Positions 5,146-49,302 of a stretch of DNA of 50,619 nucleotides are shown in pieces. The notes below the pieces were generated by a model. That model was not told where the DNA came from and did no database searches. It was given only the letters and a program-made list of their open reading frames with translations. The translations under genes were made by a program, and so were the position numbers. Origin of the DNA: a virus; IMG/VR virus record IMGVR_UViG_3300017613_001069, positions 1 through 50,619 of that record, one strand, 5' to 3'. The stretch's first letter is position 1. Every line of letters begins with the position of its first letter.

Positions 5146-5245
5146 ATAGAGACAGGGGGCAGAGGTACTAAGAAAGGAGGAGGAAAGCTAGTACTCTCTT
5201 GCAGCATGACACAGGCGCAGCTACTATCAAACCCCCTATCTCTAT
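5146..5245 (-). ncRNA. Candidate structured RNA with anti-Shine-Dalgarno loop
   Basis: Read on the - strand, 5232-5245 pairs with 5146-5159 over 14 consecutive pairs; the one non-Watson-Crick position is a G-U wobble in this sense and a C-A mismatch in the other. Inside are two hairpins. GUAGC/GCUGC is about 5 bp. A second stem (5162-5170 with 5189-5198) has an 18-base loop containing CCUCCUCCUUUCU, which resembles the 16S rRNA 3' tail. The outer helix covers the stop codon of the upstream gene, and the downstream gene's GGAGGA site follows it. I infer a cis-acting leader or a small RNA. On the + strand, T-rich sequence after the repeat would instead suggest a long-loop terminator for the RusA operon. 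Confidence 0.45.
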
Positions 5246-5619
5246 TTGTTTTTCAGCTCACTTTTAATGACACGGATGTCGGCAGATATATCAAACATTT
5301 GTTCACTGGTTTCTTTATGAATAGTCTGATTAGCAACTTCGGATGCTTTAACACTATTCCATAGAAAACCAGAAACAACAATCATCGACGTAAGAATACC
5401 ACCAACAACCCACATAAAAAGTTTAACTGATGTTTTTGATTTCACAACCTCGTTAATCCTCTCATGTAACTTACCATGGGCATCTTCTCGCGCTGCTTCG
5501 TATTCCTCAAATCGGTGTCGTAAGCAACCCAGTTCTTGGTACGAGCTCCCGGTATCGCTTACTATCCCAGAATGCGCTGTACAATCTTTGCAAGGAATCC
5601 CATGCCCACTATTAGTCAT
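5242..5619 (-). CDS. Small membrane protein with coiled coil (holin/XhlA-like topology)
   Basis: I placed the start at the ATG (5619), seven bases after AGGAG; a GTG one codon upstream is less well spaced. The 125-aa protein has a Cys-containing N-terminus (CKDC, C10 and C13), a charged helical region (about 35-62), one membrane helix (about 66-88) and a charged tail. This resembles phage haemolysin XhlA-type or holin-accessory proteins, but the order of parts is common and lysis function is not proved. It follows a small lipoprotein gene. No endolysin was recognised nearby. Confidence 0.65.
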   Translation of the reverse strand: MTNSGHGIPCKDCTAHSGIVSDTGSSYQELGCLRHRFEEYEAAREDAHGKLHERINEVVKSKTSVKLFMWVVGGILTSMIVVSGFLWNSVKASEVANQTIHKETSEQMFDISADIRVIKSELKNK

Positions 5620-5629
5620 CACCCTACTC

Positions 5630-5911
5630 CTACTTACTTACCTTTTTCTTTCCGTTCCGTTTCTTTACAACCTCGACGGCTTTATTACCTCCAAAGATCA
5701 GCCCAAAGAGCGACACTATAGAGAGAGCAAAATATTCAAGTCCTTTTTTGATCGGCTCTTCTACTGCTGAGGCTCCAGGTACAGTGTCAGCGATTGCATC
5801 TGCCACGGTCGCGGCAATAAGTGACGCTGCTTCTTCTGATGTTCCAGGTTGACCAAGCATCCCACACGAAACGATTCCAAAAAGTAAGAAAATCAACAAT
5901 ATGCTTCTCAT
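5630..5911 (-). CDS. Small lipoprotein with a second membrane segment
   Basis: I chose the ATG at 5911 (GAGGA eight bases upstream) over a TTG five codons earlier. The 93-aa product starts with a lipoprotein signal, MRSILLIFLLFGIVSC, with the lipidated Cys at 16. It has an Ala/Asp/Glu-rich linker, a hydrophobic helix at about 58-76 and a Lys-rich C-terminus. A lipid anchor plus a second span next to a membrane protein recalls phage lysis accessory proteins, but no spanin-like architecture is clear. Confidence 0.65.
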   Translation of the reverse strand: MRSILLIFLLFGIVSCGMLGQPGTSEEAASLIAATVADAIADTVPGASAVEEPIKKGLEYFALSIVSLFGLIFGGNKAVEVVKKRNGKKKVSK

Positions 5912-6006
5912 CGTTACTGTCCTCAAAATGAACTATGAAAACGATTTGCCCCCAAAGACCTCCTCTCATGAGGGTTATATTAAAAAAAGTTTCAAATAAG
6001 GCAACA

Positions 6007-13405: not shown

Positions 13406-16400
13406 TTAAGGGGTTATGCCATAGATCTTTTTAAGTTCTGAAAGCCGCCTGGTATAAGTCTCTTTTGGTTGCCAAAGAGAACGTGAACGGTCCAGGGTTC
13501 CGCCGTGTTTTTCCTTATACTCCTTGACCAGTAACTGGCGAGCATCTTCATAGGATGGCATTAAGAAAAGCAGTCGATCTTGACGTGCTTTAAGTGTATC
13601 AATGAATTCCTGTTGAGCATTTTTGTAATTACCTGGCCGACCCTTGTAGTACCTTTTGTCTGGGGGAGCTTTAGTAGCAGAAGAAGCGACTCCATAAAGA
13701 TATGTTCTCGCATTCTTAGCAATGCTTGCAGGAGGATCCTTAACCAAGGACATGGGATCGTTAGCCACCTGCTTCATGGTTTCCCTAAAGCTCTTTGATT
13801 CTTTGCCAGCAGCTTCGGCTTCTTTAATGAGAGAACGCAGAGGAACATATGCAGCGTTATAAAATAAATTTAGCCTTTGATATTCAGCCTGTTCCTTCTG
13901 GGAAAGCTCGTCTCCAAGAGATTCGCGTCTCTGAAGGAAGTATCTTCTGGTTGTTGATTTCTGAGCATTCTTAGGAAGAGATAAACGTAACGCAGCAGAT
14001 TCTTGATCAGAATTTTCAATAGTAGCCCATTGCTCGTTTGTTAAACCACTATCGCTGATCCTAAGCAATCTGTTCATACCAGTTACAGCACCAACTGTTT
14101 TCATGATAGCTTCAGTTCCACCAGCAGTCCCCTGCTCGAAAGATTCGCCTAGTAATGGAGACATTGTATAATGTAACAAGGAACCTGGTATTCCGAACTT
14201 GTTAAGAGACCAGGCTATCATTTTGCGATCAGCGTACCAAGGATTCGCCTTGCGTGCTCTCCATTCTTTTCCAGGAACAATATTCTGGTTATAATGAGGA
14301 TCAACAGGATTAATCCCAGAGCCATATTGGATCCATTTATGTGCAATATCAAGAGGAGGTGACATGGAAGGAATAAGTTCTTCTTTGAAATCTGCAAAAA
14401 ATCCGCCCACCAGGTCACGATATGTTTCTCCTTCTTTTAGTTCTTTTCCAGCAGCCAGGCCAAGCGCGTCTGTAGCGTACCACCAGACACGGGAAACAAA
14501 CTTGCCCAGGTCATCTCGAGGTATAGTGCCGAAGATTGATTTGCCTTCATTATTAATGCCGAATGGAAATACATCATAATCAGTAAGAAAATATTTTGAA
14601 ATACGCCTATAAGTCTTGTCAACTTTGGTTGCAACTTTACCAGCAAGAGTATCGTCGTCTTCGTCGTCTACACCAAACATAGCTCTAATAGCAACGCCAA
14701 GAGCTCCATATGCTCCCAACTTGGCAATACTGGTTGGCAGAATGATGTTTACTAGCTGTCTCCACCACCAGCCTGAAGCCGTTTCTGGGCTTGTAGCGAG
14801 ACCAATGTCGGCTGACATGCCATTCCACCGTACCCTCGAATACATAAGTACCGGATTGGTTATCACTGTAGCCAAGCCACGCTGTTTGTAATCAGGAGTT
14901 CCTACATATTTTCTGACCCGATAAGCAACCTCCTGAGCAGGAAGCCCCTTTTTCTTGAGCAGTTTATAGCCAGCAATTTTTGTTGCGGTTTCTTGTACCT
15001 GCCCAGTAGCCTCAAGCAATGCCAGGAACCTACCTATGACAGGAATCCTTTGAAGCTTAGGTTTTTCGTCCGGTCGCAAACCATGCGTTTTAAAAAGCCG
15101 ATCTGTATCTTCTCCTATCCCCTCGGCAGCAACATGAGTATAGGGAATGTCCAAGGCATGACTATCATACATCTCTTGAATAATGGCATCGTCTATACCC
15201 TTTGCCCTACGTATTGCTGTAGGAATTGTTTTTGTCCACTCAATCATCAACTCTTTCAGGCTGATCTTGCTTGTGGCACCAAGATTCACCCAGGTACGTC
15301 TCAGGTCTCGGAAAGGATTTGCCATCAAAAAACCAGGGTTGTAGGTCACGAATAAAGGATGAAAAATCTTATATGCAAAATTGTTAAGCGCAGCTACCTT
15401 TGCCAGACCACCGACATCATGTATGAGAAATGATTTAGAAATCTCCTTTGAAACTTCATAATATGTAATTTTCCCATCTACCAGTTCCATGATATGACCG
15501 TTGCCCTTTTTAGGAGGCTTCTTTGGCTTTCGGTCTTTTGTTAGATCTACCTTTTCAATTTCAGAAGAAAACTCCTTTTCCAAAAACACCCTTGATTTGT
15601 TCTTGGCCCTATTTAACTGTATCAATCTATTAAGACGCACCACTTTAAGGACTGTTGCTTCAAAGGGGTTTTGAACGTCAGAAAAGGTGCCTATCTGTTT
15701 CATAACGCCTGTAGCAATAACATCAGGATCATCAATGTAGTGTGTTACCCGAAAAGCCGCATAATTGTCTTTGTTTGGCTCAATATGTTCATCAAATATC
15801 TTTTTGTTATAAACCCCTTCGGCAACAGCTTTCTCTGTTACTTCGAATACAAGGTTATGAAATTTTTGAGCATAGTCCTCGAGCTTCTTATAACGATTAT
15901 ATCCAATTCGTCTTTTTATTTCATCAAGCTGCGACGTTGATGGTGTTGCCGTAAAGGCTCCTGGATTTGCAATATCAAATCTTTCGTTAGCAACCCGCCA
16001 GTGAAAAAGAAATTCACCTAGGGTAAAATGAGCTTCATTTCTTGCTTGTTCGGCTGTGATACCTGGCCCAGACATCATCTCAATCGCTGGTTGATATACC
16101 TGTTCATCTATATTCCTTAAAAAATTATGATTAGGGGAATCAATAGTATATAGCTCGTCAAGGGCATACCTGGCAGCCTCTGCATCATTTTCAAATTCAC
16201 CCTTGATAGGCTTTCTACCAATCTTTTTGAAAATAGGATGTGGAGAGGTAAGGATATACTGTCCTATAAAATCAGTAAGACCGGACCAGGCTGATTGTTT
16301 CCTCTGTTCAGCCGCCATTCTAAGGTGGCGAATATGATCCTCAGTATTAGCAAACATATCGCGTAGAGTATTAGTCCTGGATATTGCCAGATCCTCACCA

Positions 16401-19400
16401 ATACCATTCAACATAAGCTGGAGTTCGGAGTATGCCTGTAAAGCTTCAGGTTTTTTGTTTAGGTTGTTAAGAAGTAGATTATAAAAGGTAGGGGCTCTCT
16501 GTTCCAGATCCCCAGGCGAGTTCAGCCACACAGATAAGGCTTCAGCATAAAGTTCCCGCGAGGATTCACGATATTTTACGTAGGATTCCCGTCCACCAGC
16601 ATAATCACCGCTCCACCATTTAGTGAGATCCAATAACTCGTCTCTCAACACCTTGATGGAAACCAACTCGCGGGCCTTGTATATTTTTTCTCTTTCTTTC
16701 TGTAGTTCTTCTTTAGTGGCTTCTTTGCCAAGCCGTTCTCTGGCCAGTTTTGAAATACGCGCCATTTCTTGCTTGCCGATTTCCGGCATTACAGTCTTTA
16801 AGAAACCTCTTAGTGAGTGTAACCGTCCATGAAGGTTACCCCGTCTCAAGGTATTATCAGGCACAAAATCAATAAGGTGTCCGATTTCATGAGCCAGTGT
16901 CTGAGCAAGAGCCTCTTCAGTTTTTGCGGTCCCTGGATCAATCAGAATAGCAAGAGGACCAATACCCTCCATACCCTTGAACATACCCGCAGACTTAGGA
17001 AGCCTTTTTATTCTGGGAGATACACCAAGAAGCTGCTTTGCAAGCTGGTAAAGCTCGGGGGTCTCGACCGGCCTCAACATATGCTCTACGGCACCGACAG
17101 GCTTGCCTGGCTTGGGTTCTATGGTAGGACGCTCTGTTGGCTTAGATGCAGCTCCCGTTGGTGCAGTCGGCCTTACTGGCGCCTCCTCTTCGGGCATATC
17201 TATAGCCGCTAAAAATGATTTATCGCCAGCTTCGTTTTGAAAAACAAGTGTTTGTATATCCCCGACCTCGCCAGTATATATCTTTACTGTTTTCCCTGTT
17301 TTAGCTTGATGAGATAAAATATCATTCAGGAAAAGGGCACTATAATAACCAATCAGCTCTGAGCCTTCTTGCACGTTGGCTTCACTAAAATTGCCCGCAT
17401 CACTATGAGCAGTAAAGCCTAGTGTCTTGTCTGGGTTCAACGATACAGCTACCGTGCGTGCTGCTGCGCTTCCCCTGGTACGATCTTTCTTTTTTTCACC
17501 CGTGAGTTCTGGAAATATAGATGCCGAAATCCTCACATTTTTAACTAAATTACTTGCCGATTCTTCTCCTATATAATTTGGAAGCTTTGATATAATTTTT
17601 TTGTAATCTATATATTCCAGTTCCACTGGCTTTGAGTTTTCATCGTAAACGCCATCTTTTAAATTGGTTTTGAGGTTTTCTATATTAAAGATATGCAAAT
17701 AGCTGCCATTTGTTGCTACTATGTTATTGCCATCTTTCAGGAAAACTGTACTTATATCTATGTTGTCCTGCATAAAAACAACTTTTAAAATTGATTTTAT
17801 GCGACCCGCTACGCCTTTGGGCTTTGAAAGGCTTATTCTCGGAACGGCAGATCGGGGATAAGTTGCTGTTATTTTTTTTCGTATTGTTTTGTCGGGAATT
17901 TTCGCCATCTCCGCAGCACGCCTTGCCATTTCAGCTTCTTGCCCCGGCACCACCCAAAGTGTAACATTTTTAAGATTCCTATAAGACGATGTATCGAATG
18001 GCACTAAACCAGATTTAACTACTTCTTCGGAAATAGGCTCAACTGCTTCCCCTTCTTTCTTAGGCTCAGGCTTCGGTACACTTGGTTCAGGAGGACTGGG
18101 CGCTTTAACTTTTTCTTTTGGCTTTTCAACTTTTACTCCCTTTTCGGAAGGTTCTTTTCCTTGATCAACTTGATGTTTGGTTATTAACTTTGAATAGCTT
18201 GCGAGAATAGTGTCGTCTGCTAGGGCGATAATAGCTTCAAACGCTTTTTGCCTGGTACTAAAAGAATCCGTAGTGCCAGGGACTTCCGGATTTTTGCGCC
18301 AAAATCTCCACTGGCCCATTGAAAGTTTATCAATCTTATAATTGTCTTCTACATAACGTTTCTGAGATGTTTTTCCTAAATATCGTTTGAACAAGTCAGG
18401 AAGTTCCCTTTTGACTTGTTGCGCCTGCTCGACGCGATCAGGATCCCACTTCCCCTTATCAGTAACCTCTTCTGTCTCAACAGGTACTCTGGGTGAAGGT
18501 TTTGCTGGCTCTCGCCTTTCAGGTTTGAGACCTTTAATCTTTTCTGGTTCAGCAGGAGTCCTGGGAGGTGGAGGTTCCCGTCTTACTTCGGGTTTAGGAG
18601 TTGGTTCTGGTAATAACTCACCAGGAAGAAGAGCCCCAGGCAGAGTTTCTTCAGGAAGGATTTCTGGAGGAAGAACTTCACCTGGTAAAGCTTCTCCGGG
18701 AAGGACTTCTTGTGGAATAATTTCACCAGGCAAGAGTTCTTCTGGAAAAGTTACTTCGGTTTCTGGTGGAGCTACTACGGGTTCAGAAGGCACTCCAGGT
18801 TTTGCTTCTGTTTCTGATAATACTTTTAGTAAGCCACGAATTTCACCAGCCACCTGTTTCCTGATAGGACCACCACGTTTAGGAAAACCAGCTTTAGTCC
18901 ATTGAGTTCGAGACGGCGATGTATGTTCTGCCAATTCACGCGCAGCTTCTAAATTTTCAGGAGATTCAACTATCCATTCTGCAAGTCCTATTTTCGTTAA
19001 AGCTCTTTCTTCAAGAAGCTCTTTCCCAAGGGCTTCATTAAAATTCTTGCCTCTAGCAGCTTTATCCATTGCTCGCAATGAAGCTTCTTCGCCTAACCCA
19101 TGTTGTCTGCCCAAGCTTTTTGCATATTTCTCGCGGTTTTTTATAGCTTCCTGATTCGCCACACTAGACACAGAACTGATTGCACCTGTTGCTAATGTAG
19201 TCTGAGTAAGAGTATCAATGAATATCCTGCCTGCCTGTTCCAAAGACCATTCAGTTGGATCTATCCCATAGAACTTATCGCTCAAAGCTTGAGAATATTC
19301 AGTAAGCATCTCTTCGGGAATTTCCCAGCCGGTAGCTCGAGCACCTTGTTTTAACGCCCCTTTCCATCCAGCTCGAGTGATTCCCCTTCTAAAAATCGAT

Positions 19401-20047
19401 TCAAGACCACCCTTGCCAGCCACCTGAAACACAGAAGCAAATAACGCCTCGAGACCAGCCTGAATTCCTACATACTCATGAAGCTGACCGCCTATAAGCC
19501 CTGCATCTCTCGCCTCTGTGATTGCTCGATTACCAACAGCAAGAGATGGAAGACCAATTGCACCATATGGACCTGCAACCAACCCTCCAGGAACTGCCAA
19601 AGCAACAGAACGAACAGCACCACGAACACCGCGTTGCAAGAAATCTGGAACCTTATCAGCGGTATCTGCTAAAGCATAAGCTTCTTCCCGTTCTTGTGCT
19701 TCTCGCACCATTGTATCGGCTGATTTAGTGCCAGGTCCACCAGCAACCCGTTGCAAGAGCGCACCAAGTTCTTCAACGCCTTGTTTCAAGCCTGCTGGCA
19801 CATCCCTAAGGATAGGAACACCTTCTTGAATTTGACGAGCTTTAAGACCAACTCGTTTTAACCTTGTTTTTTCTTCCTTGTGTTCTTTCTGAACACTAGG
19901 GAGCAAGGAATTAAATTTATCTATAAAACTCTGTTTCTCTTCTCTGGTCCAAGGCTTACCAAGAACTACCACGGCAGGATCCGTCATCCCTAGCCTAACA
20001 GCCTCTTTTACATAAGATTCTGAAGGATCTCTATAAGAACGTACCAT
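13406..20047 (-). CDS. Giant polyvalent internal virion protein, 2213 aa
   Basis: This is a multi-domain protein of the polyvalent type, thought to be carried in the capsid and injected with the DNA. Residues about 130-330 are Ala/Gly-rich helices. Residues 430-485 are a degenerate LPGE/LPPE repeat, and 630-680 a second Pro/Lys linker. Residues about 745-950 resemble a sliding clamp, ending NDILSHQ...AAIDMP. Residues 1000-1200 hold a zincin with HEIGH at 1053-1057 and a later RELYAEALSVWL. Residues about 1560-1640 hold YNPGFLMANPFRDLRR, as in large polyvalent-protein associated domains. A hydrophobic stretch lies at about 1755-1790. It is encoded last in the virion block, where podoviruses often keep ejection proteins. 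Confidence 0.8.
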   Translation of the reverse strand: MVRSYRDPSESYVKEAVRLGMTDPAVVVLGKPWTREEKQSFIDKFNSLLPSVQKEHKEEKTRLKRVGLKARQIQEGVPILRDVPAGLKQGVEELGALLQRVAGGPGTKSADTMVREAQEREEAYALADTADKVPDFLQRGVRGAVRSVALAVPGGLVAGPYGAIGLPSLAVGNRAITEARDAGLIGGQLHEYVGIQAGLEALFASVFQVAGKGGLESIFRRGITRAGWKGALKQGARATGWEIPEEMLTEYSQALSDKFYGIDPTEWSLEQAGRIFIDTLTQTTLATGAISSVSSVANQEAIKNREKYAKSLGRQHGLGEEASLRAMDKAARGKNFNEALGKELLEERALTKIGLAEWIVESPENLEAARELAEHTSPSRTQWTKAGFPKRGGPIRKQVAGEIRGLLKVLSETEAKPGVPSEPVVAPPETEVTFPEELLPGEIIPQEVLPGEALPGEVLPPEILPEETLPGALLPGELLPEPTPKPEVRREPPPPRTPAEPEKIKGLKPERREPAKPSPRVPVETEEVTDKGKWDPDRVEQAQQVKRELPDLFKRYLGKTSQKRYVEDNYKIDKLSMGQWRFWRKNPEVPGTTDSFSTRQKAFEAIIALADDTILASYSKLITKHQVDQGKEPSEKGVKVEKPKEKVKAPSPPEPSVPKPEPKKEGEAVEPISEEVVKSGLVPFDTSSYRNLKNVTLWVVPGQEAEMARRAAEMAKIPDKTIRKKITATYPRSAVPRISLSKPKGVAGRIKSILKVVFMQDNIDISTVFLKDGNNIVATNGSYLHIFNIENLKTNLKDGVYDENSKPVELEYIDYKKIISKLPNYIGEESASNLVKNVRISASIFPELTGEKKKDRTRGSAAARTVAVSLNPDKTLGFTAHSDAGNFSEANVQEGSELIGYYSALFLNDILSHQAKTGKTVKIYTGEVGDIQTLVFQNEAGDKSFLAAIDMPEEEAPVRPTAPTGAASKPTERPTIEPKPGKPVGAVEHMLRPVETPELYQLAKQLLGVSPRIKRLPKSAGMFKGMEGIGPLAILIDPGTAKTEEALAQTLAHEIGHLIDFVPDNTLRRGNLHGRLHSLRGFLKTVMPEIGKQEMARISKLARERLGKEATKEELQKEREKIYKARELVSIKVLRDELLDLTKWWSGDYAGGRESYVKYRESSRELYAEALSVWLNSPGDLEQRAPTFYNLLLNNLNKKPEALQAYSELQLMLNGIGEDLAISRTNTLRDMFANTEDHIRHLRMAAEQRKQSAWSGLTDFIGQYILTSPHPIFKKIGRKPIKGEFENDAEAARYALDELYTIDSPNHNFLRNIDEQVYQPAIEMMSGPGITAEQARNEAHFTLGEFLFHWRVANERFDIANPGAFTATPSTSQLDEIKRRIGYNRYKKLEDYAQKFHNLVFEVTEKAVAEGVYNKKIFDEHIEPNKDNYAAFRVTHYIDDPDVIATGVMKQIGTFSDVQNPFEATVLKVVRLNRLIQLNRAKNKSRVFLEKEFSSEIEKVDLTKDRKPKKPPKKGNGHIMELVDGKITYYEVSKEISKSFLIHDVGGLAKVAALNNFAYKIFHPLFVTYNPGFLMANPFRDLRRTWVNLGATSKISLKELMIEWTKTIPTAIRRAKGIDDAIIQEMYDSHALDIPYTHVAAEGIGEDTDRLFKTHGLRPDEKPKLQRIPVIGRFLALLEATGQVQETATKIAGYKLLKKKGLPAQEVAYRVRKYVGTPDYKQRGLATVITNPVLMYSRVRWNGMSADIGLATSPETASGWWWRQLVNIILPTSIAKLGAYGALGVAIRAMFGVDDEDDDTLAGKVATKVDKTYRRISKYFLTDYDVFPFGINNEGKSIFGTIPRDDLGKFVSRVWWYATDALGLAAGKELKEGETYRDLVGGFFADFKEELIPSMSPPLDIAHKWIQYGSGINPVDPHYNQNIVPGKEWRARKANPWYADRKMIAWSLNKFGIPGSLLHYTMSPLLGESFEQGTAGGTEAIMKTVGAVTGMNRLLRISDSGLTNEQWATIENSDQESAALRLSLPKNAQKSTTRRYFLQRRESLGDELSQKEQAEYQRLNLFYNAAYVPLRSLIKEAEAAGKESKSFRETMKQVANDPMSLVKDPPASIAKNARTYLYGVASSATKAPPDKRYYKGRPGNYKNAQQEFIDTLKARQDRLLFLMPSYEDARQLLVKEYKEKHGGTLDRSRSLWQPKETYTRRLSELKKIYGITP

Positions 20048-38075: not shown

Positions 38076-39809
38076 TCACTCGACTCTTCTTCCGACGGCC
38101 TCCCTTTCGGCCTTTTGTGGATTTCCACCCATAAGAAGCTGTGACATGGTTGCATTTCTGCCCGATCTGGTCGCGCCTGGTCGATTTATACGTTCATAGG
38201 TTCTCTTCGTTTCAGGAGGCTTGAAAGATGGTGTTGCGTTTCCCTGAACTGGCTGTTCCTCAGTAACCTGATCCTGAAACTTTACCAGCTCAGAAACAAC
38301 AGGCAAGTTACTCAGCTCTGCTATCTGATCAAGCAGAACCTTTACATCAAATATCCCCCCCTGCTGCTGGATCAGTGGCATCAATGGAACTATATATCTT
38401 TCAACCACTGTGCCAAGCTTCTGTAGCTGAATCGATGGTGAATTGTCCTGCATCGAATACACATCAATATCAAAGTTGTAGTCGAGGAAATCGCCTTCCC
38501 GAGTTTCATCGGACCATTCCCGCCTCAAGTAGATGTCCGTGTCTCCAATACGCTTCTCAACAACACGCTGGCGAACTGGATCGGTCCACTCATACCAGGC
38601 CAGAGCTTTAAAAATACTCTTAGCAAACTTGATGGTTAGCTGAGTCATGTCCTGAGCTCTGGCACCAGCAGCCTCACTCATCAGCCGATCCTGACCAACA
38701 GTCTCGCTACCAGGCCCAAGCCCACCCAACATATTAAGGTTGCCAGCAAAATAATCAAATTGATCCATAACTTGGAGATAAAACGCCAGGGTCGCCTGAT
38801 CAATACCGCCTACGGTGATCTGTTCAGGTTTCTGGCCGGAATATCGGATCCCATCACCATCAGCAGCATTCTTGAGCTGGTTTACATCTTCATCGTTCCC
38901 GCCAGCAAAAGCTGCCACGGTCTTCTTTGCGTCGGCCTGGTTGCCAAGCTTACGGAATATGGCGTTACCCAGTTCATGAAGATCCATCCAGAGCGCTATG
39001 GGAGGGAGAGGCATGATGTTGCCCGGTACGTCAGAAAACCCAAGTTTATGATAAGGGCCATTTTCTGGACCGTCCCAGTTTACGACCCTGTACCGAACAC
39101 CATTTTGAACGCCATAAGTCACTAGCTGGCCCGACGTATGAAGATAAACATCACGTAACCAGACCTTCTCCTTGTAGAGATCCGCGCCCTCATCAGAACT
39201 GACGCTCTCTGCACGTTCTTCTCCCTGGTCTCCAGTGATGGTATGCTTGTCTGGTTCTATACTATTTCTGTTAAACATCTTGCGTGCTGTATCGACCATC
39301 ACCCAGTAGTCATTCCCTTCGAACTGGATTGATTGCCTGCTCTTGGCTGACATATCAATAAAGTAGTCGTCCAGGGTCACAATGTCCGCATAAGCCTCTC
39401 CTACATCATGACCGAGGACAGCTACTCCGGACGAGGCAATCCCCACCTTGACAACTCCGAACGAAAACATAGCTTCCAACACAGCCCGACGAAGGGTGCC
39501 ACCAAGATCAATTTCCTCTGGGATCTGATTTAGAGCAAGTTCTGTGGTCTTTGCGTAAGGCTTGAGCGATGGAATTGTTGTTGTAACAAGAGCTTGAGGC
39601 GCATTTGCCGCCAATAATCGGATATAAATAGTAGTTGCAAGTTCAAGGAAGTTGGTTGGTACTCGTTTCTGAGCACCATGACGAGCATAATGTTGCCCGA
39701 CGAATTGCCGTACAGATTCAACCCGGTTGTTTCTTGGGATTTCTAACTGAGTTATAGACCAGTCTACTGCTGTTTTTAACTGTTTGAAGTCAACCCGCAA
39801 TGGTGCCAT
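38076..39809 (-). CDS. Portal protein
   Basis: The length (577 aa) and sequence fit podovirus-type portals. There is a helical N-terminal domain (FLELATTIYIRLLAANAPQ), a beta-rich wing (YFIDMSAKSRQSIQFEGNDYW) and a stem and crown region with NMLGGLGPGSETVGQDRLMSE. The C-terminus is Pro/Arg-rich and disordered. The portal forms the dodecameric ring for DNA entry. I use the ATG at 39809 because it overlaps the terminase stop (TAATG); a GTG nine bases upstream is the alternative. Confidence 0.85.
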   Translation of the reverse strand: MAPLRVDFKQLKTAVDWSITQLEIPRNNRVESVRQFVGQHYARHGAQKRVPTNFLELATTIYIRLLAANAPQALVTTTIPSLKPYAKTTELALNQIPEEIDLGGTLRRAVLEAMFSFGVVKVGIASSGVAVLGHDVGEAYADIVTLDDYFIDMSAKSRQSIQFEGNDYWVMVDTARKMFNRNSIEPDKHTITGDQGEERAESVSSDEGADLYKEKVWLRDVYLHTSGQLVTYGVQNGVRYRVVNWDGPENGPYHKLGFSDVPGNIMPLPPIALWMDLHELGNAIFRKLGNQADAKKTVAAFAGGNDEDVNQLKNAADGDGIRYSGQKPEQITVGGIDQATLAFYLQVMDQFDYFAGNLNMLGGLGPGSETVGQDRLMSEAAGARAQDMTQLTIKFAKSIFKALAWYEWTDPVRQRVVEKRIGDTDIYLRREWSDETREGDFLDYNFDIDVYSMQDNSPSIQLQKLGTVVERYIVPLMPLIQQQGGIFDVKVLLDQIAELSNLPVVSELVKFQDQVTEEQPVQGNATPSFKPPETKRTYERINRPGATRSGRNATMSQLLMGGNPQKAEREAVGRRVE

Positions 39810-41725
39810 TATTTCCACCCCGCTCCCACAAGTTCTCTGTTGGGATCCTGCCCAGCGTCCTGAATTCTCTTCTGTTCTCTTCGCCAGGCTAAACTACCCA
39901 TTGGAATTTCGGGTTTCTCGAGCTTTGGCATGATTTCACGCTCCATTAACCCATGATTTGCAAGAGCATCAGCAATTGTCTCATCACCGTGAGCCAGTCT
40001 GGCTCCCGATGGATCTTGCGAGCTTGCCGCGTCAGAATGTACCACAAGCCCGCCAGGTTGCACAATAAATTGTAAACACTCTTTTAATCCCGTTCTAGAA
40101 CGATTGATAAAATTCCCGTCTCCTAACGCATCCCTATAATTTTCTAAAACATGTGTTCTGGCTTCTGGATTCAGATAATATCCCGGCTCATCAGTAAGCT
40201 TCTTGCCAATCTTTTTTTCGTATCGACGATAATAGACATTGCCATAACTCTTTGCCATCACCCGCATAGTAAATGTTCTGCCCGTTGGTCCGCTCGCGTC
40301 CCAGACCAAGAAAGCACCATTAAAAAACTTCGCCATAGCAATAACAACATCAGCGAATGGGTTTGGCCTAATATGTGGATTTCTGTAAACTGCTACCTTT
40401 TCAGCGGTAGAAACATCCACAACCGTGGCCACCGAATTACTGGCTCCAGTACCGGCAGATACATCAACTCCTATCACGAATTTCCGATCGAAGGGAATCT
40501 TGTCCCGTCCATCAAGAGTCATCCATAACTGAAGCGGGCCTTGGGATTCTTCCGCAAACCGTTTAGGCTCAAGCGTTTCTGGTTCGAATGTCACCTTACC
40601 GATCGTTAAAGGTGGTCTGGCGTGCTTCTTCATGAGAAGATCGATCGTCTCAGGATCAAAGAACTGATAATCCGAACCTAGGAAATCAATCTCCAGCTCC
40701 TGAGCAATCTCCATTTCTGAGACACATCTGGCACATTGATTATCAAACCAGGGAGAACGCAGGTTCCATCTGCCCACCCTAATGAATGGATAATCGTCAG
40801 GAAACATAACTTCCTTGGCCAAACCCTCTCCCTTGCGCTGAACACGAACCTTACCCCTGAAGTCGTCAAGTAGTTCGACCTCGCCGTCTGTAACGGTATA
40901 CAGGCCCCTATTATAGATAGGATGATGCCGCCAGTGCAGTTTTAGCTGTCTGGCCGCAGTATCATGAACGACCTCATAGAAGGCGTTTGCAGCTCCCTGA
41001 GGCGTTGAGTTGAAACCTCTACAATTGGTGGTGTCTCTGGTCGCTCTGAGAACCCTGAACCCATCATTCAACTCAAACGCAGCATGCTCATCAATAAACA
41101 TCGCTGTCCGCCGATCACCCCGTCCTGCATCCCCCGTGGTGGATTCTCCATCGATGACTGAATCTGTATCGGCATTCCCCAGATGAAGCGACTTACGATT
41201 TGGGTCTTTGTTGAGTAGATCTCGATTTATCGGAAGCAACCATCTCGGTTGATACTTATGCAAAAAATCTATCTTCCAGAACAGACTCTTTGGGTTATTT
41301 GTATCATCAACATACTTCTCGTTCCTCGAAATAAGCAAAAAACTCAGATTGTTACGGAAGTGCCAGAACCACTCAAAGACCGTGAGCCCCATCCAGGAGG
41401 CTCCCATGGCTCGAGATTTAGGAATTGCAAAGTCTTCACCAACCTGAACACAGTCAACAATATTCAGCATGGTTTCGTCTTGAAATGAATATGTGATGAA
41501 AGGAACGACAGGGTTTTCTAGGCGGGGATCGTATGTCCAGCAAAATACATTAATATAAAATAATATGTCTTCCGAACACATGCGCCACAACTCTTTAGCT
41601 TTTCCTTGATCAGAAGCAGCAAGTTGTAACACACTTTTACGAAAATGTAGGTTTTCAGATAACTCCTTTGGCACCAAATAATAATACGGACACTTAACTG
41701 ATCCTATCTGAGTAAGTCTTTCCAT
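39809..41725 (-). CDS. Terminase large subunit
   Basis: The protein is the 638-aa DNA packaging motor and nuclease. ATPase motifs are Walker A PKSRAMGAS (102-110) and Walker B MFIDEH (D212, E213). The nuclease motifs are GVDVSAGTG (D421), LVWDASGPTG (D476) and GDETIADAL (D581, D586), which place metal-binding acids in an RNase H-like domain. The two-domain order and motifs are complete. It cuts concatemers and translocates DNA through the portal encoded next. TGATG overlap links it to the 27-aa basic peptide before it. Confidence 0.95.
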   Translation of the reverse strand: MERLTQIGSVKCPYYYLVPKELSENLHFRKSVLQLAASDQGKAKELWRMCSEDILFYINVFCWTYDPRLENPVVPFITYSFQDETMLNIVDCVQVGEDFAIPKSRAMGASWMGLTVFEWFWHFRNNLSFLLISRNEKYVDDTNNPKSLFWKIDFLHKYQPRWLLPINRDLLNKDPNRKSLHLGNADTDSVIDGESTTGDAGRGDRRTAMFIDEHAAFELNDGFRVLRATRDTTNCRGFNSTPQGAANAFYEVVHDTAARQLKLHWRHHPIYNRGLYTVTDGEVELLDDFRGKVRVQRKGEGLAKEVMFPDDYPFIRVGRWNLRSPWFDNQCARCVSEMEIAQELEIDFLGSDYQFFDPETIDLLMKKHARPPLTIGKVTFEPETLEPKRFAEESQGPLQLWMTLDGRDKIPFDRKFVIGVDVSAGTGASNSVATVVDVSTAEKVAVYRNPHIRPNPFADVVIAMAKFFNGAFLVWDASGPTGRTFTMRVMAKSYGNVYYRRYEKKIGKKLTDEPGYYLNPEARTHVLENYRDALGDGNFINRSRTGLKECLQFIVQPGGLVVHSDAASSQDPSGARLAHGDETIADALANHGLMEREIMPKLEKPEIPMGSLAWRREQKRIQDAGQDPNRELVGAGWK

Positions 41726-41820: not shown

Positions 41821-42504
41821 TTAAAACTCACCCTTCTTCCATTCAGGTACCACAAGTTCCGACTCTTCATCTTTTTCCTCCTTTTCAACTACCTCTTCCT
41901 CCTTGGGTTCCTCCTTGGCCTCTCTCCCGAACCGTAACAGATCTTCTATAACCTCCTTCGCCCTACCCTCATCAGGCAGGTCAGAACGATCCTCCTCCAT
42001 CTGAGTTCTTGATGGTAGCAGCTTGGGAAAGGTCTGTTTCCAGAAATCACTCTGTGCAATCCCACTTTTACGACATTGAACCAGCAAACCCCATGCAGCA
42101 GCGCTCGGACAGTCTTTCGGCTGCGGATCCGCGATCTCCATGTTAGACGCAACCCAGCGGATCACTTCTACCTCACTAGCTCGTTTTTCCTCAAAATCTT
42201 CAGCTTTAACCACCGGCAACTTCGGCAGATCACCAACATGACCTTTTACCTTAGTCTCTGATGGATGCTCGTTTACCGTATACCCCCGGCTCCCCTTGGG
42301 TTTAGCTTTCGTGTTTGGCTTGGCTCTTGTCTTTCGATAGCGAGCTGCTTCTGGAGGATTATCAAAAAACTTGTCCAGCGCTTTCTGTTGAGCTTCAATG
42401 CCAACCATCCCGCCTTCTTTTAGCTCTTCCCTGTATCTTATAAACTCCCCCCATCTCCCCTCTTTTAACAACTGTTCTTTCAACTCAGGTGATGTCTTCG
42501 GCAT
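41821..42504 (-). CDS. Candidate terminase small subunit, 227 aa
   Basis: The protein is encoded just before the large terminase, with only the 27-aa gene between. It has a helical N-terminal third (LKEQLLKEGRWGEFIRYREEL), a basic linker (RYRKTRAKPNTKAKPKGSRG), a second helical part (EVEVIRWVASNMEIADPQ, AAAWGLLVQCRKSG) and a strongly acidic tail. Helical, oligomer-forming and charged ends are usual for small terminase subunits, which choose the packaging site. The evidence is context plus composition. Confidence 0.55.
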   Translation of the reverse strand: MPKTSPELKEQLLKEGRWGEFIRYREELKEGGMVGIEAQQKALDKFFDNPPEAARYRKTRAKPNTKAKPKGSRGYTVNEHPSETKVKGHVGDLPKLPVVKAEDFEEKRASEVEVIRWVASNMEIADPQPKDCPSAAAWGLLVQCRKSGIAQSDFWKQTFPKLLPSRTQMEEDRSDLPDEGRAKEVIEDLLRFGREAKEEPKEEEVVEKEEKDEESELVVPEWKKGEF

Positions 42505-42517
42505 TGAAAATCCCCTG

Positions 42518-42790
42518 CTATTTTAAACATTTCTTTTTTCTCTGACACAAATAGATTAAGGTAACCCCAATACCTACAATTCCTAACGTAAACGGTTCTG
42601 GCACCGGATCTTGATCGTCAGGACCAGAATCTTCAAGGTTCACCCAATCATCTTCATCATCATATATTTGGTCTTGAGGGTTATACGGCAAGATCACCGG
42701 CTGATCTTCTTTCACTATCGAAGAAGTGTCTTTACTGCAAGCAAATATGACTACAAGACAAGCAAGATATGCAATTACATTTCTAGTCAT
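42518..42790 (-). CDS. Lipobox and PEP-CTERM-like surface protein, 90 aa
   Basis: Residues 1-18 are a lipoprotein signal (MTRNVIAYLACLVVIFAC; lipidated Cys18). The middle is very acidic (EDDWVNLEDSGPDDQDP). The last 28 residues read VPEP at 63-66, F-T, a hydrophobic helix of about 15 residues and a basic cluster (QRKKK). That is the layout of the PEP-CTERM sorting signal (Pro-Glu-Pro, transmembrane helix, Arg/Lys tail) which exosortase recognises in some Gram-negative hosts. I infer export and anchoring at the host surface. A weak ribosome site and a terminator-like stem lie upstream. Confidence 0.65.
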   Translation of the reverse strand: MTRNVIAYLACLVVIFACSKDTSSIVKEDQPVILPYNPQDQIYDDEDDWVNLEDSGPDDQDPVPEPFTLGIVGIGVTLIYLCQRKKKCLK

Positions 42791-42808
42791 TAGTCACCAG
42801 CTTCTCTT

Positions 42809-42891
42809 AAAAAAAGCCAGCCGCAGGACAGAGCCGGGAAAAGCATTAAAGGTATGATGTGAAAAAGAAGAATATACCGTCCTGCGACTGG
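42809..42891 (-). terminator. Long-loop stem with U tract (candidate terminator)
   Basis: On the - strand 42891-42877 pairs with 42831-42817 over 15 bases, including two G-U wobbles, across a loop of 45 bases. C then seven T follows (42816-42809). The stem and U tract fit a rho-independent terminator; the long loop is unusual. The wobbles exist only in the - sense. It lies between the 53-aa membrane-peptide gene and the PEP-CTERM-like gene, whose ribosome site it nearly touches, so it may instead control that gene. Confidence 0.5.
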
Positions 42892-42913
42892 TTGCCATCT
42901 CTAGCTCCAAGAT

Positions 42914-43075
42914 CTACGTCTTGTTCGAATTTTCTCTTAACTTTCTCAAAGTCTGTATGTGGTGACGTAATCGATTCATCTCCCTCGCCCACATAAAAAT
43001 ACCCCAAATCAAAATGATAAGTATCAGCAAGAAAGGGATTAATATCCATGCTACGAGATACAGAGAAACAGTCAC
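42914..43075 (-). CDS. 53-aa membrane peptide
   Basis: The frame starts at GTG (43075) after GAGGGGGGTTGTTG; two in-frame TTG codons just upstream are alternatives. About residues 3-30 are very hydrophobic (YLVAWILIPFLLILIILIWG), followed by a basic, helical tail (REMNRLRHHIQTLRKLREN). This is a single-span protein with a cytoplasmic coiled tail. An overlapping frame with an ATG at 43049 has less protein-like composition and I reject it. Function unknown; holin-like size. Confidence 0.55.
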   Translation of the reverse strand: MTVSLYLVAWILIPFLLILIILIWGIFMWAREMNRLRHHIQTLRKLRENSNKT

Positions 43076-43091
43076 CAACAACCCCCCTCTT

Positions 43092-45449
43092 CTAATCCGT
43101 TATCCTCAAAGAAATTGGATTACTCACCAACTTGTGCGGTCCCAAGATGCCATACGCCAGATACAAATGTTTACCCTTGACCAGATTCGCCACATCACCA
43201 GGGACCGTCACCTGTGCCGTAGCACCATCGGCACTCAATACCCCGCTAAACCCACTAAACCAGGGGGAATGAGATTGTAGCGAAAGATTAGTCACCGCAT
43301 CCTTGGCAATAGGAAGTGATGGACCGTTCCAGTTCATCGGCGGACACGTCCCCGTCAAAGAAGCCATCACCACATACTTCGAACCCGCATACTGAGCACC
43401 AGGTCGTATATATAAAGTAATATTGTTCTCCCCCTTGCTGGCAGAAATTATGTAGTCGCTGGCTGCCAGTAGACCTTCCAGCCGAGGCAGAACCGCCCAC
43501 TTGGGATCCTGGTTAAGTTCAGGTCTTGCAAGCAGCCGAGGAGTTAGGGTATTCCAGGCAGATACACCATTCTGCTGGTGATAACAGGCAGCAAGAGCAG
43601 GCAAGGTAAGATAACAATACCCGTGTTCAGGATCTCCAAGCCGTCCCTCAAAATCAGCTTTGAAGTTGTACCCGCTCTCAAACCCATTCATAAGATCAGG
43701 CCAGAACTGGAAATAATGGCCCGCCTCCGCAGTCACGGGGATTCTATACACTCCCATGATATGAGGATCACATTCTGGATGCGTAGCTATCCCGGTAAAA
43801 TGTTCCGCGAACCATTTTACAAGCGCATCTACCGGATACCCAAGCTCCTTGGCACGCCATAAACCGCTCATAGCAACACATTCCATCCAAGGGCTCATTG
43901 CCTTGTCGGTCTCGTCAGGATCTACGGGCGACTCAGGTCCACCACCACCGTCTTTGCGCCAGTGATGCAACGGAGGAACTCCTAATCCGTTATACTCAGC
44001 ATTGATACAGCTCTTGGCCCAGTTATAAAGACTGGTTACAGATTCATAAGTCATCGGGATGTCTCTGATACCTTCCCAGACAGAGATTGCGTCTCTTACC
44101 AGGTCGTGCAGGTACGTCTTCATCGGATCCTCGTCCGGAGTGATCCAGGCTGCCTGAACTCGGTTCCTAAAATCCCAGCCGTCTCCTCGAGGTTCGCCGT
44201 GAATACCACCCTCCTTCCCGCTAGGGCCTCTGCCCCAAGGAACACCAGCACGATAGAAGAACGCGCTATACGCCGACAAGAACTGTATCTCCTCCAGATA
44301 GAAATAATCGCCTGTCAAAACATATTGAGGAAATCCGATGTCCGGCTGATGTGCGCTCTCGACTTCCCAGCCCGTGTCCGCTACAGGCCCGGTAGGAACA
44401 ATAAGATCCGCATCCACCGTACCATGTTCACGCTGTTTCTCGACGCTGATCGGACATATCCAAAGACATAATGAAGGCCGATCCTCAAGTTTCAACATGT
44501 CTCCGTCTTGTTTTCTCAGATGGTACGGCCAGTTAGCAGCAAGATCCGCTTGACCAAGAGACACCTCCTCCATCTTCCGGTCGAACGTGTAAAGCCATTT
44601 GTTCGACCATTCAGGCATAAGACCAATATCAGGACGCCCACCTGAGTTGCCCATCGGAGGTGTCCATAAACCACGCTTTCCAAGCAGCTTGTTTGATCCA
44701 GACCAGTCTGAATACATCTTGTTCACGGCACTGACAGGGACGGTCTTGCTCAGGTCATAGTTGGGGAACACTTTGGTAGAAACTAGATAAGGCAGGTTGT
44801 GATCTATCTTGAGCTTGTTCCATTCCCCGGCAGATACGAACGTCCATCTCGCACCGGCCTGGTGCATGAACCCGTCCTGCCGGTACACCTCAGACCCGTT
44901 AACGTCCAACGATAGATCATACGTCTGATCCTTGAAGTTGTTCACATTAGCTGATTCACCAATGAACCGTACCTTTGAGTAGTTTCTGAAATGACTTATA
45001 TGAAATATAGGACGTACAGCGTCCACATCCTCGGCACCATCATGACCAGCTAATATCACCGTCGTGCACAACGGACCGTTCAGCCATCTATCAACAACGC
45101 GAATACCAGCGTCCGTAACACAAACCTCCGTGTCGCCAATAGTAATGGATGGAGTTACCCGGTCCAAAATTGTGGCCAAAGATGCACCACCACCATGGAA
45201 AACATCAGCATCTTCAAAGTGATACGTCTTCGTCTCACCCGACGCAAAATCGTCTTCAAACGTGATGATCGCATGTTTCACAGACCCGTCCCAGTACCGA
45301 CACTTGATGTCAGATTGAAAAGTCTGTGCTCCCACCACTACAGGATAATGCTGGATCTCTCCGTACCGGAACACCCGGCCGATCTGCACGGGAACCTGAC
45401 TCAGACCCTCAGATCCCTCATTGGTTACTGTTATTGTATTTTCAGTCAT
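43092..45449 (-). CDS. PcRGLX/YetA-like putative glycan lyase, 785 aa
   Basis: The first 85 residues (GLSQVPVQIGRVFRYGEI; DIKCRYWDGSVKHAIITF) resemble the RIFT-barrel start of the exo-rhamnogalacturonan lyase PcRGLX/YetA family. The middle (about 250-600) is mainly aromatic and helical with HGEPRGDGWDFRNRVQAAW and NAEYNGLGVPPLHHWR, compatible with an alpha/alpha barrel. The C-terminus (about 660-785) is beta-rich. I infer a polysaccharide-degrading enzyme or a virion-borne depolymerase. No signal peptide or catalytic residue can be assigned with confidence. Confidence 0.55.
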   Translation of the reverse strand: MTENTITVTNEGSEGLSQVPVQIGRVFRYGEIQHYPVVVGAQTFQSDIKCRYWDGSVKHAIITFEDDFASGETKTYHFEDADVFHGGGASLATILDRVTPSITIGDTEVCVTDAGIRVVDRWLNGPLCTTVILAGHDGAEDVDAVRPIFHISHFRNYSKVRFIGESANVNNFKDQTYDLSLDVNGSEVYRQDGFMHQAGARWTFVSAGEWNKLKIDHNLPYLVSTKVFPNYDLSKTVPVSAVNKMYSDWSGSNKLLGKRGLWTPPMGNSGGRPDIGLMPEWSNKWLYTFDRKMEEVSLGQADLAANWPYHLRKQDGDMLKLEDRPSLCLWICPISVEKQREHGTVDADLIVPTGPVADTGWEVESAHQPDIGFPQYVLTGDYFYLEEIQFLSAYSAFFYRAGVPWGRGPSGKEGGIHGEPRGDGWDFRNRVQAAWITPDEDPMKTYLHDLVRDAISVWEGIRDIPMTYESVTSLYNWAKSCINAEYNGLGVPPLHHWRKDGGGGPESPVDPDETDKAMSPWMECVAMSGLWRAKELGYPVDALVKWFAEHFTGIATHPECDPHIMGVYRIPVTAEAGHYFQFWPDLMNGFESGYNFKADFEGRLGDPEHGYCYLTLPALAACYHQQNGVSAWNTLTPRLLARPELNQDPKWAVLPRLEGLLAASDYIISASKGENNITLYIRPGAQYAGSKYVVMASLTGTCPPMNWNGPSLPIAKDAVTNLSLQSHSPWFSGFSGVLSADGATAQVTVPGDVANLVKGKHLYLAYGILGPHKLVSNPISLRITD

Positions 45450-46604: not shown

Positions 46605-47852
46605 TCAACTGTCTCTCTCGTCAGCGCCTATGTCATTCGTTACATTATAAGGACGTGTATCACCCTCGAAATCTAAAAGGGTCGCCTCAGGAGCTGTATT
46701 CAAACCCGTATCCTTACAACCTGAATCCGTGCTAATGTGATAATCGTCAGCAGCAGCATCCTCAAAATCCGGATCTGTCTCTATGTTGTCTGTGCCTCCT
46801 GCCCAATCCTTAATCCACGTAACTCCGTTGTCAGTAATCCGAGCCGCTCCATCCTCGACACAACAATATTCAATCCATACGTTCGTGTCATAATCAGGAT
46901 GACCATACTGAAGATGCATATGCTCCGCAGGCTGAGGCGGACCCTGATCCCAGAATATATTGTTGTATAAATAAAGATAACTGTCGCTCGTAATAAGACC
47001 CGCGTTTCCCCTATAAACAAATGCATAATTACTAGCCGTCATATCCGCAAACGTGTTGCCGATTATATACGTGTGCTGGTGATGGTCTAACTCCACCTGC
47101 TTCATTTCATAAAACAAATTGTCCGTGATATACGCAACACCGCCAAAAGTACTATCATCATATTTCTTTATATAAAGATCACCAGCATCATACATGGTAT
47201 TATAATTAAAATGCACGTCGCCAAGTATATACACTGATGTATCATCTGTTCTGCCAATACGATCATTGTCGTATATCTCGTTGCCCTGGACCAAACAATC
47301 AAAACTGGTCTTTTGAAGAGACATCGCTGGATGATTGTCGTCGGCATAGTTATTATAAATTTTATTGTCCTTGATTATTAATGAAAGATAGCAATCCCAA
47401 CCCAGTGCATATATCCCTCCACCATAACAAAAAACATTGTTGTCAACTGTGTTTGTATGAATCCAACAGTCACTGATCTCGGGCTCCGAGTCATATATGT
47501 ATATGCCACCACCATAAGTGGTAAGACCCAAAACTATACCAGACCCGTTCGTTATCTGAAAACCCGACAAAACCGCATCGTTCGTTTCACCATTTACAAA
47601 CTTCACCACAGGCCCCGCCTCTCCTCCATCTATAACGCAACTGGCAGCACCGTTCTCGCTCTCTACCGTTATGTCTTTGCCTTTAAAATTTAAATTCTCC
47701 ACATACGTACCATCCGATACCGTGATCGTTTCACCGTCCCTAGAAGCGTTTATGGCAGCCTGAATTGATGAATAACCACGCGGCACCAAACGCTCAATCG
47801 CCTGGCCAGATGCAAATCCACAAAATAACAAAAACAACACTAATGTACGCAT
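46605..47852 (-). CDS. Secreted right-handed beta-helix protein, paralogue 1 (415 aa)
   Basis: Start chosen at the ATG of 47852 (AAGGAG eight bases upstream). A signal peptide (RTLVLFLLFCGFASGQA) is followed by a beta helix: SIQAAINASRDGETITV, NGSGIVLGLTTYGGGIYIY, ISDCWIHTNTVDNN, NKIYNNYADDN, YLYLYNNIFWDQG. It ends LDFEGDTRPYNVTNDIGADE. The order resembles bacterial secreted parallel beta-helix proteins more than phage spikes. The twin gene upstream is very similar. Carbohydrate binding or cleavage is the usual role of this fold, but no catalytic residue is assigned. Confidence 0.75.
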   Translation of the reverse strand: MRTLVLFLLFCGFASGQAIERLVPRGYSSIQAAINASRDGETITVSDGTYVENLNFKGKDITVESENGAASCVIDGGEAGPVVKFVNGETNDAVLSGFQITNGSGIVLGLTTYGGGIYIYDSEPEISDCWIHTNTVDNNVFCYGGGIYALGWDCYLSLIIKDNKIYNNYADDNHPAMSLQKTSFDCLVQGNEIYDNDRIGRTDDTSVYILGDVHFNYNTMYDAGDLYIKKYDDSTFGGVAYITDNLFYEMKQVELDHHQHTYIIGNTFADMTASNYAFVYRGNAGLITSDSYLYLYNNIFWDQGPPQPAEHMHLQYGHPDYDTNVWIEYCCVEDGAARITDNGVTWIKDWAGGTDNIETDPDFEDAAADDYHISTDSGCKDTGLNTAPEATLLDFEGDTRPYNVTNDIGADERDS

Positions 47853-47864
47853 CACCAAAACTCC

Positions 47865-49136
47865 TTAACTGTCTCTCTCATCAGCTCCGATGTCATAATC
47901 CACTTCAAAAGGCCGAGTATCGCCCTCGAAATCCAATGCAGTCGCCTCGGGTGCTGTGTTCAAGCCCCCGTTATTGCAATCTGATCCGTCCTGAATGTGA
48001 TAGTCGTCAGTGCCTGCATTCACAAACGTAGGGTCCGTCTCTATGTTGCCCGTACCCGTCGCCCAACTCTTCACCCAATTAACTCCATTGTCGTTTATCT
48101 GCGTAGCGCCGCCCTCTACACAACAATACTCGATCCATACGTCCGTGTCATGATCAGGATGACCATACTGTACCCTAATATGATACGTCGGAGTTGCCCC
48201 CTGATCCCAAAATATGTTGTTGTAAAGATAAAGATAACTGTCTCCCGTCGGTGTAGCCGCGTTACCCCTGTAAAAAAGCGTTGTCGGTATACTAGATTCC
48301 TGCGTAAAATCCGCAAATGTGTTGCCTATAATATACGTGTGATTGTGATGACTTACCTCCACCATACTTATCTCATAAAACAAGTTGTCCGTAATATACG
48401 CATGACCACCAAACTCATCCTCCTCATACTTTTTTATGTCTACATCATGGTCAGGGTGATCATAAACAACATTATAATTAAAGTGCACGTCACCATGAAT
48501 GGCTATCATAGTACTACCGCCACCCTCATTACCATAAATCTCGTTGCCCTGTACTAATGTGTCAAAACTGGTGTTCCTGAGAAACATCGCCGTTGCCCCG
48601 TCATCAGCATAATTGTCATAGATCTTGTTGTCCTTGATTATTAATGTGATCGGGTCGCCCGTGCTTGTTGCATATATACCACCAGCACCACACCTAACAT
48701 AGCCATCTACACTGTTCGTGTGAATCCAACAATCACTGATCTCCGGTTCTGAATTGTAAATATAAATCCCACCACCATAATTAGTATTACCATGTACCCT
48801 GCCAGATCCGTTCGTAATCTGAAATCCTGACAATACCGCGTCGTTTGTTTCACCATGCACAAACATCACCACAGGAGCACCCTGCATAGGAACACCCGAT
48901 CCATGTATAACACAATTCGCAGCCCCACCTGAACTCTGCACAGTAATGTCTTTACCCTTGAAATTGATGTGCTCAAAATACGTGCCGTTCCCTACCGTAA
49001 TCGTGTCTCCATCACTAGCACGGTCTATAGCCTTCTGTATCGAATAGGACGGGCTTATAACCACACGCTCAACCGCCTGACCGTATGATACAGAACCTAA
49101 TAAACCAGCTAAAAACAACGCTGCTAAAATACGCAT
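47865..49136 (-). CDS. Secreted right-handed beta-helix protein, paralogue 2 (423 aa)
   Basis: The start at 49136 follows GGGAGTTTTAGTG. The signal peptide is RILAALFLAGLLGSVSYGQA. The body matches paralogue 1 nearly block for block: EPEISDCWIHTN, GGGIYIYNS, NKIYDNYADDG, SYLYLYNNIFWDQG, YGHPDHDTDVWIEYCCVE and the end DIGADERDS. The middle differs more (GGSTMIAIHGDVHFNYN) and it is eight residues longer. Only twelve bases separate the two genes, so this is a tandem duplication. Its role is unknown. Confidence 0.75.
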   Translation of the reverse strand: MRILAALFLAGLLGSVSYGQAVERVVISPSYSIQKAIDRASDGDTITVGNGTYFEHINFKGKDITVQSSGGAANCVIHGSGVPMQGAPVVMFVHGETNDAVLSGFQITNGSGRVHGNTNYGGGIYIYNSEPEISDCWIHTNSVDGYVRCGAGGIYATSTGDPITLIIKDNKIYDNYADDGATAMFLRNTSFDTLVQGNEIYGNEGGGSTMIAIHGDVHFNYNVVYDHPDHDVDIKKYEEDEFGGHAYITDNLFYEISMVEVSHHNHTYIIGNTFADFTQESSIPTTLFYRGNAATPTGDSYLYLYNNIFWDQGATPTYHIRVQYGHPDHDTDVWIEYCCVEGGATQINDNGVNWVKSWATGTGNIETDPTFVNAGTDDYHIQDGSDCNNGGLNTAPEATALDFEGDTRPFEVDYDIGADERDS

Positions 49137-49149
49137 CACTAAAACTCCC

Positions 49150-49302
49150 TTATCTGGTAAGAAGAGGCTCAATCTGAAAAGATGCCGCCGTTACCACCGC
49201 TCCCATCGCTACCCAAGCTACAAACAACAACACCGCAGCTACTACCATAAAAAATACTATCCATGCTAATACCTGTCTAACACGATATAAATCTATCCGC
49301 AT
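49150..49302 (-). CDS. 50-aa single-span membrane peptide
   Basis: The ATG (49302) lies seven bases after AGGA. Residues about 11-40 are strongly hydrophobic (VLAWIVFFMVVAAVLLFVAW) with a basic N-terminus and a short polar C-terminus. It is a single-span, or perhaps hairpin, membrane peptide. The frame ends just inside the longest version of the next gene, whose real start is downstream. This is the first gene after a pair of terminator-like repeats. Confidence 0.55.
   Translation of the reverse strand: MRIDLYRVRQVLAWIVFFMVVAAVLLFVAWVAMGAVVTAASFQIEPLLTR

Follow-up and report, generated by a model that had tools for sequence, protein, structure and literature searches.

What could a phage gain from a protein of only 90 residues that carries a lipoprotein signal at one end and, at the other, a tail resembling the sorting signal of the bacterial PEP-CTERM/exosortase system? 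This question is raised by P0001, an ORF confirmed at precisely the stated coordinates, 42518-42790 (minus strand), in a 50,619-base IMG/VR virus record, the whole of which was analysed and is called the window here. The explanation considered best, with a probability of roughly 0.58, is that P0001 is an accessory ('moron') protein acquired by the phage that would use the exosortase sorting route of the host. The product reads MTRNVIAYLACLVVIFAC SKDTSSIVKEDQPVILPYNPQDQIYDDEDDWVNLEDSGPDDQDP VPEPFTLGIVGIGVTLIYLCQRKKK CLK, and its parts are listed together with other features of the window in Table 1.

The codon usage of P0001 is gene-like. Its score (0.121) is within the range of the large genes of this phage, with 35% of true CDS segments below it. 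No control segment taken from a non-coding frame attains this value, and the antisense frames over the region, where a plus-strand ORF (42611-42793) overlaps, score below the sense frame. A possible Shine-Dalgarno sequence (AAGAGAAG) is located 10 bases 5' of the ATG. The 44 residues of the ectodomain comprise 14 D/E against 2 K/R, with 5 P and no Cys, which agrees with the very acidic product described in an earlier note on this DNA. No relatives of P0001 were found in IMG/VR or in 10 genomes of the Cerasicoccus family, and comparison with annotated phages gave chance-level matches only.

Table 1. Coordinates of P0001, its parts and other features of the window.
Feature	Coordinates	Strand	Description and basis
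ORF P0001	42518..42790	-	90 aa; lipobox signal, acidic ectodomain, PEP-CTERM tail; coding-like codon usage
P0001 residues 1-17	42740..42790	-	N-terminal signal MTRNVIAYLACLVVIFA; sequence and pattern match
P0001 Cys18	42737..42739	-	Predicted lipidated residue of VIFA-C, with Ser at +2; pattern match
P0001 residues 19-62	42605..42736	-	Acidic Pro-containing ectodomain; composition
P0001 residues 63-86	42533..42604	-	PEP-CTERM domain (VPEP, hydrophobic helix, QRKKK); TIGR02595, six-frame match at the same coordinates
Inverted repeat	42817..42891	-	CCAGUCGCAGGAC...GUCCUGCGGCUGG, 13-base arms, then U7 (42809-42815); directly upstream of P0001
Putative terminase small subunit	41821..42504	-	Downstream of P0001; position and weak similarity (28% identity) to the ORF preceding TerL in L098
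Terminase large subunit (TerL)	39809..41725	-	phrog_2, 1.3e-14; basis for kinship and host inference
Second two-anchor protein	5630..5926	-	98 aa; lipobox C21, C-terminal TM, basic tail, no PEP; pattern, no TIGR02595 match
Single-TM protein	5242..5622	-	126 aa; adjoins the 98-aa lipoprotein; sequence

Upstream of P0001, the inverted repeat and its U7 run are terminator- or attenuator-like, with an unexceptional folding energy (MFE -36 kcal/mol, z only -1.6); Rfam and tRNA scans gave no match, the repeat included. The product of the putative small-subunit gene downstream has no HMM match in Pfam, NCBIfam or PHROG. The block at 43.1-49.2 kb, upstream of P0001, holds further accessory-looking genes, including two tandem beta-helix paralogues with signal peptides on the minus strand (46605-47858, which has no IMG/VR relatives, and 47865-49172). 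The same block encodes a 785-aa protein (43092-45449, minus strand) with no match in Pfam, NCBIfam, PHROG or PDB and no IMG/VR relative. Elsewhere in the window, a 2213-aa ORF without family match (13406-20047, minus strand) contains a HEIGH zinc-metalloprotease-like motif.

At the N-terminus, with R3 in the n-region, the residues V14-I15-F16-A17-C18 fit the PROSITE-type lipobox pattern, so that the lipoprotein signal proposed earlier is borne out, although P0001 departs from the strict consensus [LVI][ASTVI][GAS]C by having F at -2. The co-occurrence of this signal with a PEP-CTERM tail is unusual, as had also been claimed, since at most one (L130) of 38 Cerasicoccus PEP-CTERM proteins checked, all of at least 180 aa, shows the lipobox pattern, and the early Cys of this protein may belong to an ordinary signal peptide. 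The pattern is likewise absent from all 19 IMG/VR PEP-CTERM proteins among the matches listed (for L168, by inspection). This rarity also counts against the exosortase-substrate reading, given that 37 of the 38 Cerasicoccus proteins are without a lipobox and a lipidated substrate would be atypical.

At the C-terminus, a VPEP motif is followed by a 16-residue hydrophobic stretch and the basic tail QRKKK, and just 4 residues lie beyond residue 86. Residues 63-86 cover all 24 positions of TIGR02595, and a six-frame search of the 50,619-base record with this model returned P0001 as its sole match (18 bits). The HMM search that the earlier note had suggested as a check came out divided: P0001 reaches 16.5 bits with TIGR02595, against an NCBIfam cut-off of 16, whereas Pfam PF07589 gives 14.9 bits, under its gathering cut-off of 20.7. 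Thus, P0001 is a borderline PEP-CTERM member under curated rules. The substrate reading is favoured by a TIGR02595 match above the cut-off, in register and close to the C-terminus of an ORF with gene-like codon usage, and it is weakened by a score barely above one threshold and under that of Pfam.

PEP-CTERM proteins have been described as carrying a signal peptide, few basic residues, no homologues and a motif near the C-terminus (Haft et al. 2006, PMC1569441), and P0001 agrees with all four traits. Like substrates of the PEP-CTERM/exosortase (EpsH) system (TIGR02595, PF07589, PF09721), it presents PEP, a hydrophobic helix and a basic tail near its C-terminus, preceded by an N-terminal export signal and a basic-poor ectodomain with little homology. 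Unlike the known members, it is phage-encoded, only 90 aa long and equipped with a lipobox-type signal, while its tail differs from known ones in having F instead of S/A/G after PEP, a KKK tail and a borderline HMM score.

Such a marginal score, together with the lack of conservation, would also suit a membrane protein whose PEP-CTERM-like tail, decayed or converged, is left unprocessed, and which would act as a two-anchor or inner-membrane protein, for example in superinfection exclusion. An acidic, P-rich segment makes a chance PEP more likely, at about 1% per candidate: when this segment was shuffled, PEP fell within its final 8 positions in 0.95% of trials, and VPEP in precisely the observed place in 0.014%. 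Moreover, PEP or PDP was absent from the TM junction in all 95 ORFs from related loci that have a C-terminal TM followed by a basic tail. The tail of P0001 exceeds chance, yet is borderline by HMM score; what the shuffles and controls reject is a chance origin of the features taken together, not of the HMM score by itself. An unprocessed tail is made unlikely by its proper register, its spacing and its placement at the C-terminus, as well as by the presence of related phage genes in exosortase-rich genomes.

Among 50 related phage records, none gave a TIGR02595 match at E<=0.1. All four bacterial genomes searched that carry related terminase genes gave PEP-CTERM matches, and therefore the search works. 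The lack of any homologue of P0001 and of a PEP-CTERM match in phages of the same TerL clade weakens the substrate reading. So does its failure to score with a profile built from Cerasicoccus tails (4.4 bits, no better than noise); this profile is too narrow and noisy, and the judgement therefore rests on TIGR02595 and the shuffles. Comparison of generic PEP-CTERM tails with annotated phage families and records (PHROGs, tblastn) gave nothing useful, short queries limiting the sensitivity.

The host type was approached through the kinship of the phage. Relatives of the window's TerL occur in 36 further virus loci and also in 14 loci of bacterial or archaeal genomes. Among the latter, two from Verrucomicrobiota rank highest (64%), and Planctomycetota come next at ~45%. 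In a quick TerL tree, the window falls within a 22-row clade that includes both Verrucomicrobiota rows, with the Planctomycetota rows outside. A locus of Cerasicoccus frondis shares with the window TerL (64%), portal (62%), capsid (69%) and a serine recombinase (46%), and also holds a terS-like ORF and further head and tail genes. By its gene content it appears to be a prophage-like region sharing the packaging/head module, and since it is read as a prophage with a serine recombinase, the phage of the window may be temperate. The C. frondis genome contains 6 exosortases and 53 PEP-CTERM matches, and an exosortase occurs in 22 of 35 sampled genomes of the Cerasicoccus order. Because related TerL and other phage genes sit in exosortase-bearing Verrucomicrobiota, kinship, and not direct linkage, points to a probable exosortase-bearing host of Verrucomicrobiota type and gives good support to the exosortase-bearing host anticipated in the earlier note. 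The exosortases and PEP-CTERM repertoire of a genome with a related phage module favour the substrate reading, and a host inferred from kinship only weakens it.

The combination of a lipobox and a C-terminal TM also defines the unimolecular spanins of the T1 gp11 type (PMC6139136), and P0001 has exactly this two-anchor layout in one small phage protein, a possibility that the earlier note leaves aside. As such a spanin, it would be held by the Cys18 lipid in the outer membrane and by its C-terminal TM in the inner one, fusing the membranes at lysis, and its PEP would be coincidental. Residues 19-66 contain no periplasmic Cys, as in known unimolecular spanins (0 of 58; PMC6139136). The position of the gene would also be suitable. 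In lambdoid phages the lysis cassette precedes terS, and P0001 immediately precedes the terminase genes, with a possible small TM ORF (42914-43081) upstream of it. However, this 55-aa ORF has poor codon support, and no endolysin was recognised near P0001 among the proteins scanned. The ORF overlaps a 67-aa one in a different frame (together 42846-43081, minus strand), and codon usage favours the 67-aa frame. Furthermore, the acidic ectodomain of P0001 is short, ~47 residues against 62, the shortest combined periplasmic length quoted for two-component spanins (PMC6139136), and PEP at the TM junction is unlikely by chance according to the shuffles.

The same genome also offers a separate two-anchor gene, the 98-aa protein at 5630-5926, which adjoins a TM gene and is the sole other small two-anchor ORF in the window. 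Without a PEP match, it is a better unimolecular spanin candidate than P0001, and the related phages L007, L064 and L073 likewise have two-anchor proteins, none with PEP. All this renders a spanin role for P0001 rather unlikely. The adjoining 126-aa protein has no family match above the cut-off in Pfam, NCBIfam or PHROG and is a possible holin; the two genes (5242-5926, minus strand) form a possible lysis pair downstream of a primase gene.

The exosortase-substrate reading of P0001 is further favoured by the fact that PEP-CTERM proteins recur elsewhere among virus records. In IMG/VR, two motif scans, sampling few exact peptide patterns and thus giving lower bounds, found them in at least 19 other records, all above the TIGR02595 cut-off, and at least 10 of these records show apparently true phage settings. 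The best case is a group of five near-identical loci (L170-L173 and L187, in records of 29.7-73.2 kb) that share one 114-aa protein (about 4743-5087), with the sequence MNKKLLFIFTMFVSGIFA...SYDWDDDDEDDDDDDDKYKRP...VPEPSTYALFAGMIGLGYAVYRRK, comprising a signal peptide, a poly-Asp tract and a PEP-CTERM tail. No terminase was found in records of this type. In one such record, many ORFs around the gene resemble glycosyltransferases by eye and one resembles a dUTPase, and a tyrosinase-domain protein is among the ORFs near it.

Other groups include PEP-CTERM proteins of about 209-223 aa (L175, L177, L184 and L185), a conserved pair in records with terminase (L174 and L178), a 95-aa protein apparently without signal peptide among structural genes of a record with terminase (L176:4797-5084) and a 231-aa protein between tail-fibre-like genes (L168). 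In the three records of the first group in which the next gene was inspected, the PEP-CTERM gene is directly followed by one for a secreted signal-peptide protein (L175:4485-5879, L177:139-1962, L184:4018-5847), possibly an outer-membrane barrel, Phe-terminal where the end is seen. The records outside these groups (L179-L183 and L186) may be host flanks; their PEP-CTERM proteins are long and host-like, in some cases close to a contig end, and were not counted as secure phage genes.

P0001 shares with all the persuasive groups a C-terminal tail above the TIGR02595 cut-off and with the L170 type its small size, its acidity (Asp-rich in that protein) and the order of signal, acidic tract and PEP-CTERM. 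Unlike P0001, the other virus proteins have no lipobox and end in the canonical VPEPST (GEPST in L168), and no homology to P0001 extends outside the tail. Thus, phages appear to borrow the bacterial PEP-CTERM surface-delivery route repeatedly, in unrelated phages.

If P0001 is indeed an exosortase substrate, it would be exported by Sec, cleaved by signal peptidase II and lipidated at Cys18, while the C-terminal helix would halt in the inner membrane with the basic tail in the cytoplasm. The host exosortase (EpsH/Xrt) would then cut at the PEP site, and the peptide set free, short, acidic and lipidated at its N-terminus, would pass to the outer membrane or the cell surface, where its display could alter the surface, e.g., in charge, polysaccharide attachment or receptor access. 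We infer each of these processing steps, and likewise which host is involved and what benefit results. A different use of the same signal would be as a decoy that occupies the host exosortase during infection and disturbs the sorting of host surface proteins. The shortness of P0001, with little beyond its two signals, is compatible with this, and so are the PEP-CTERM proteins that other viruses encode. Nevertheless, an intact acidic ectodomain and a lipobox would be superfluous in a decoy, and this use is considered very improbable.

No description of phage-encoded PEP-CTERM proteins or exosortase substrates was found in the literature searched, which covered few subscription journals or preprints. 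Among environmental Gram-negative bacteria, sorting by exosortases is common. It is tentatively proposed, at somewhat less than even odds, that phages of exosortase-bearing hosts constitute a class not recognised so far, in which exosortase substrates, often small and acidic, are encoded repeatedly as a means of remodelling the surface or outer membrane of the infected cell through the host's sorting system, P0001 being a double-tagged lipoprotein version. If true, P0001 would join an outer-membrane lipid anchor and exosortase processing in one 90-aa protein, and small acidic phage substrates would be minimal natural reporters of exosortase activity in Verrucomicrobiota. Moreover, the PEP-CTERM tag could help in assigning hosts to uncultured phages, and the hijacking of the exosortase route by phages would represent a defined way to change the host surface, its polysaccharide coat or phage entry.
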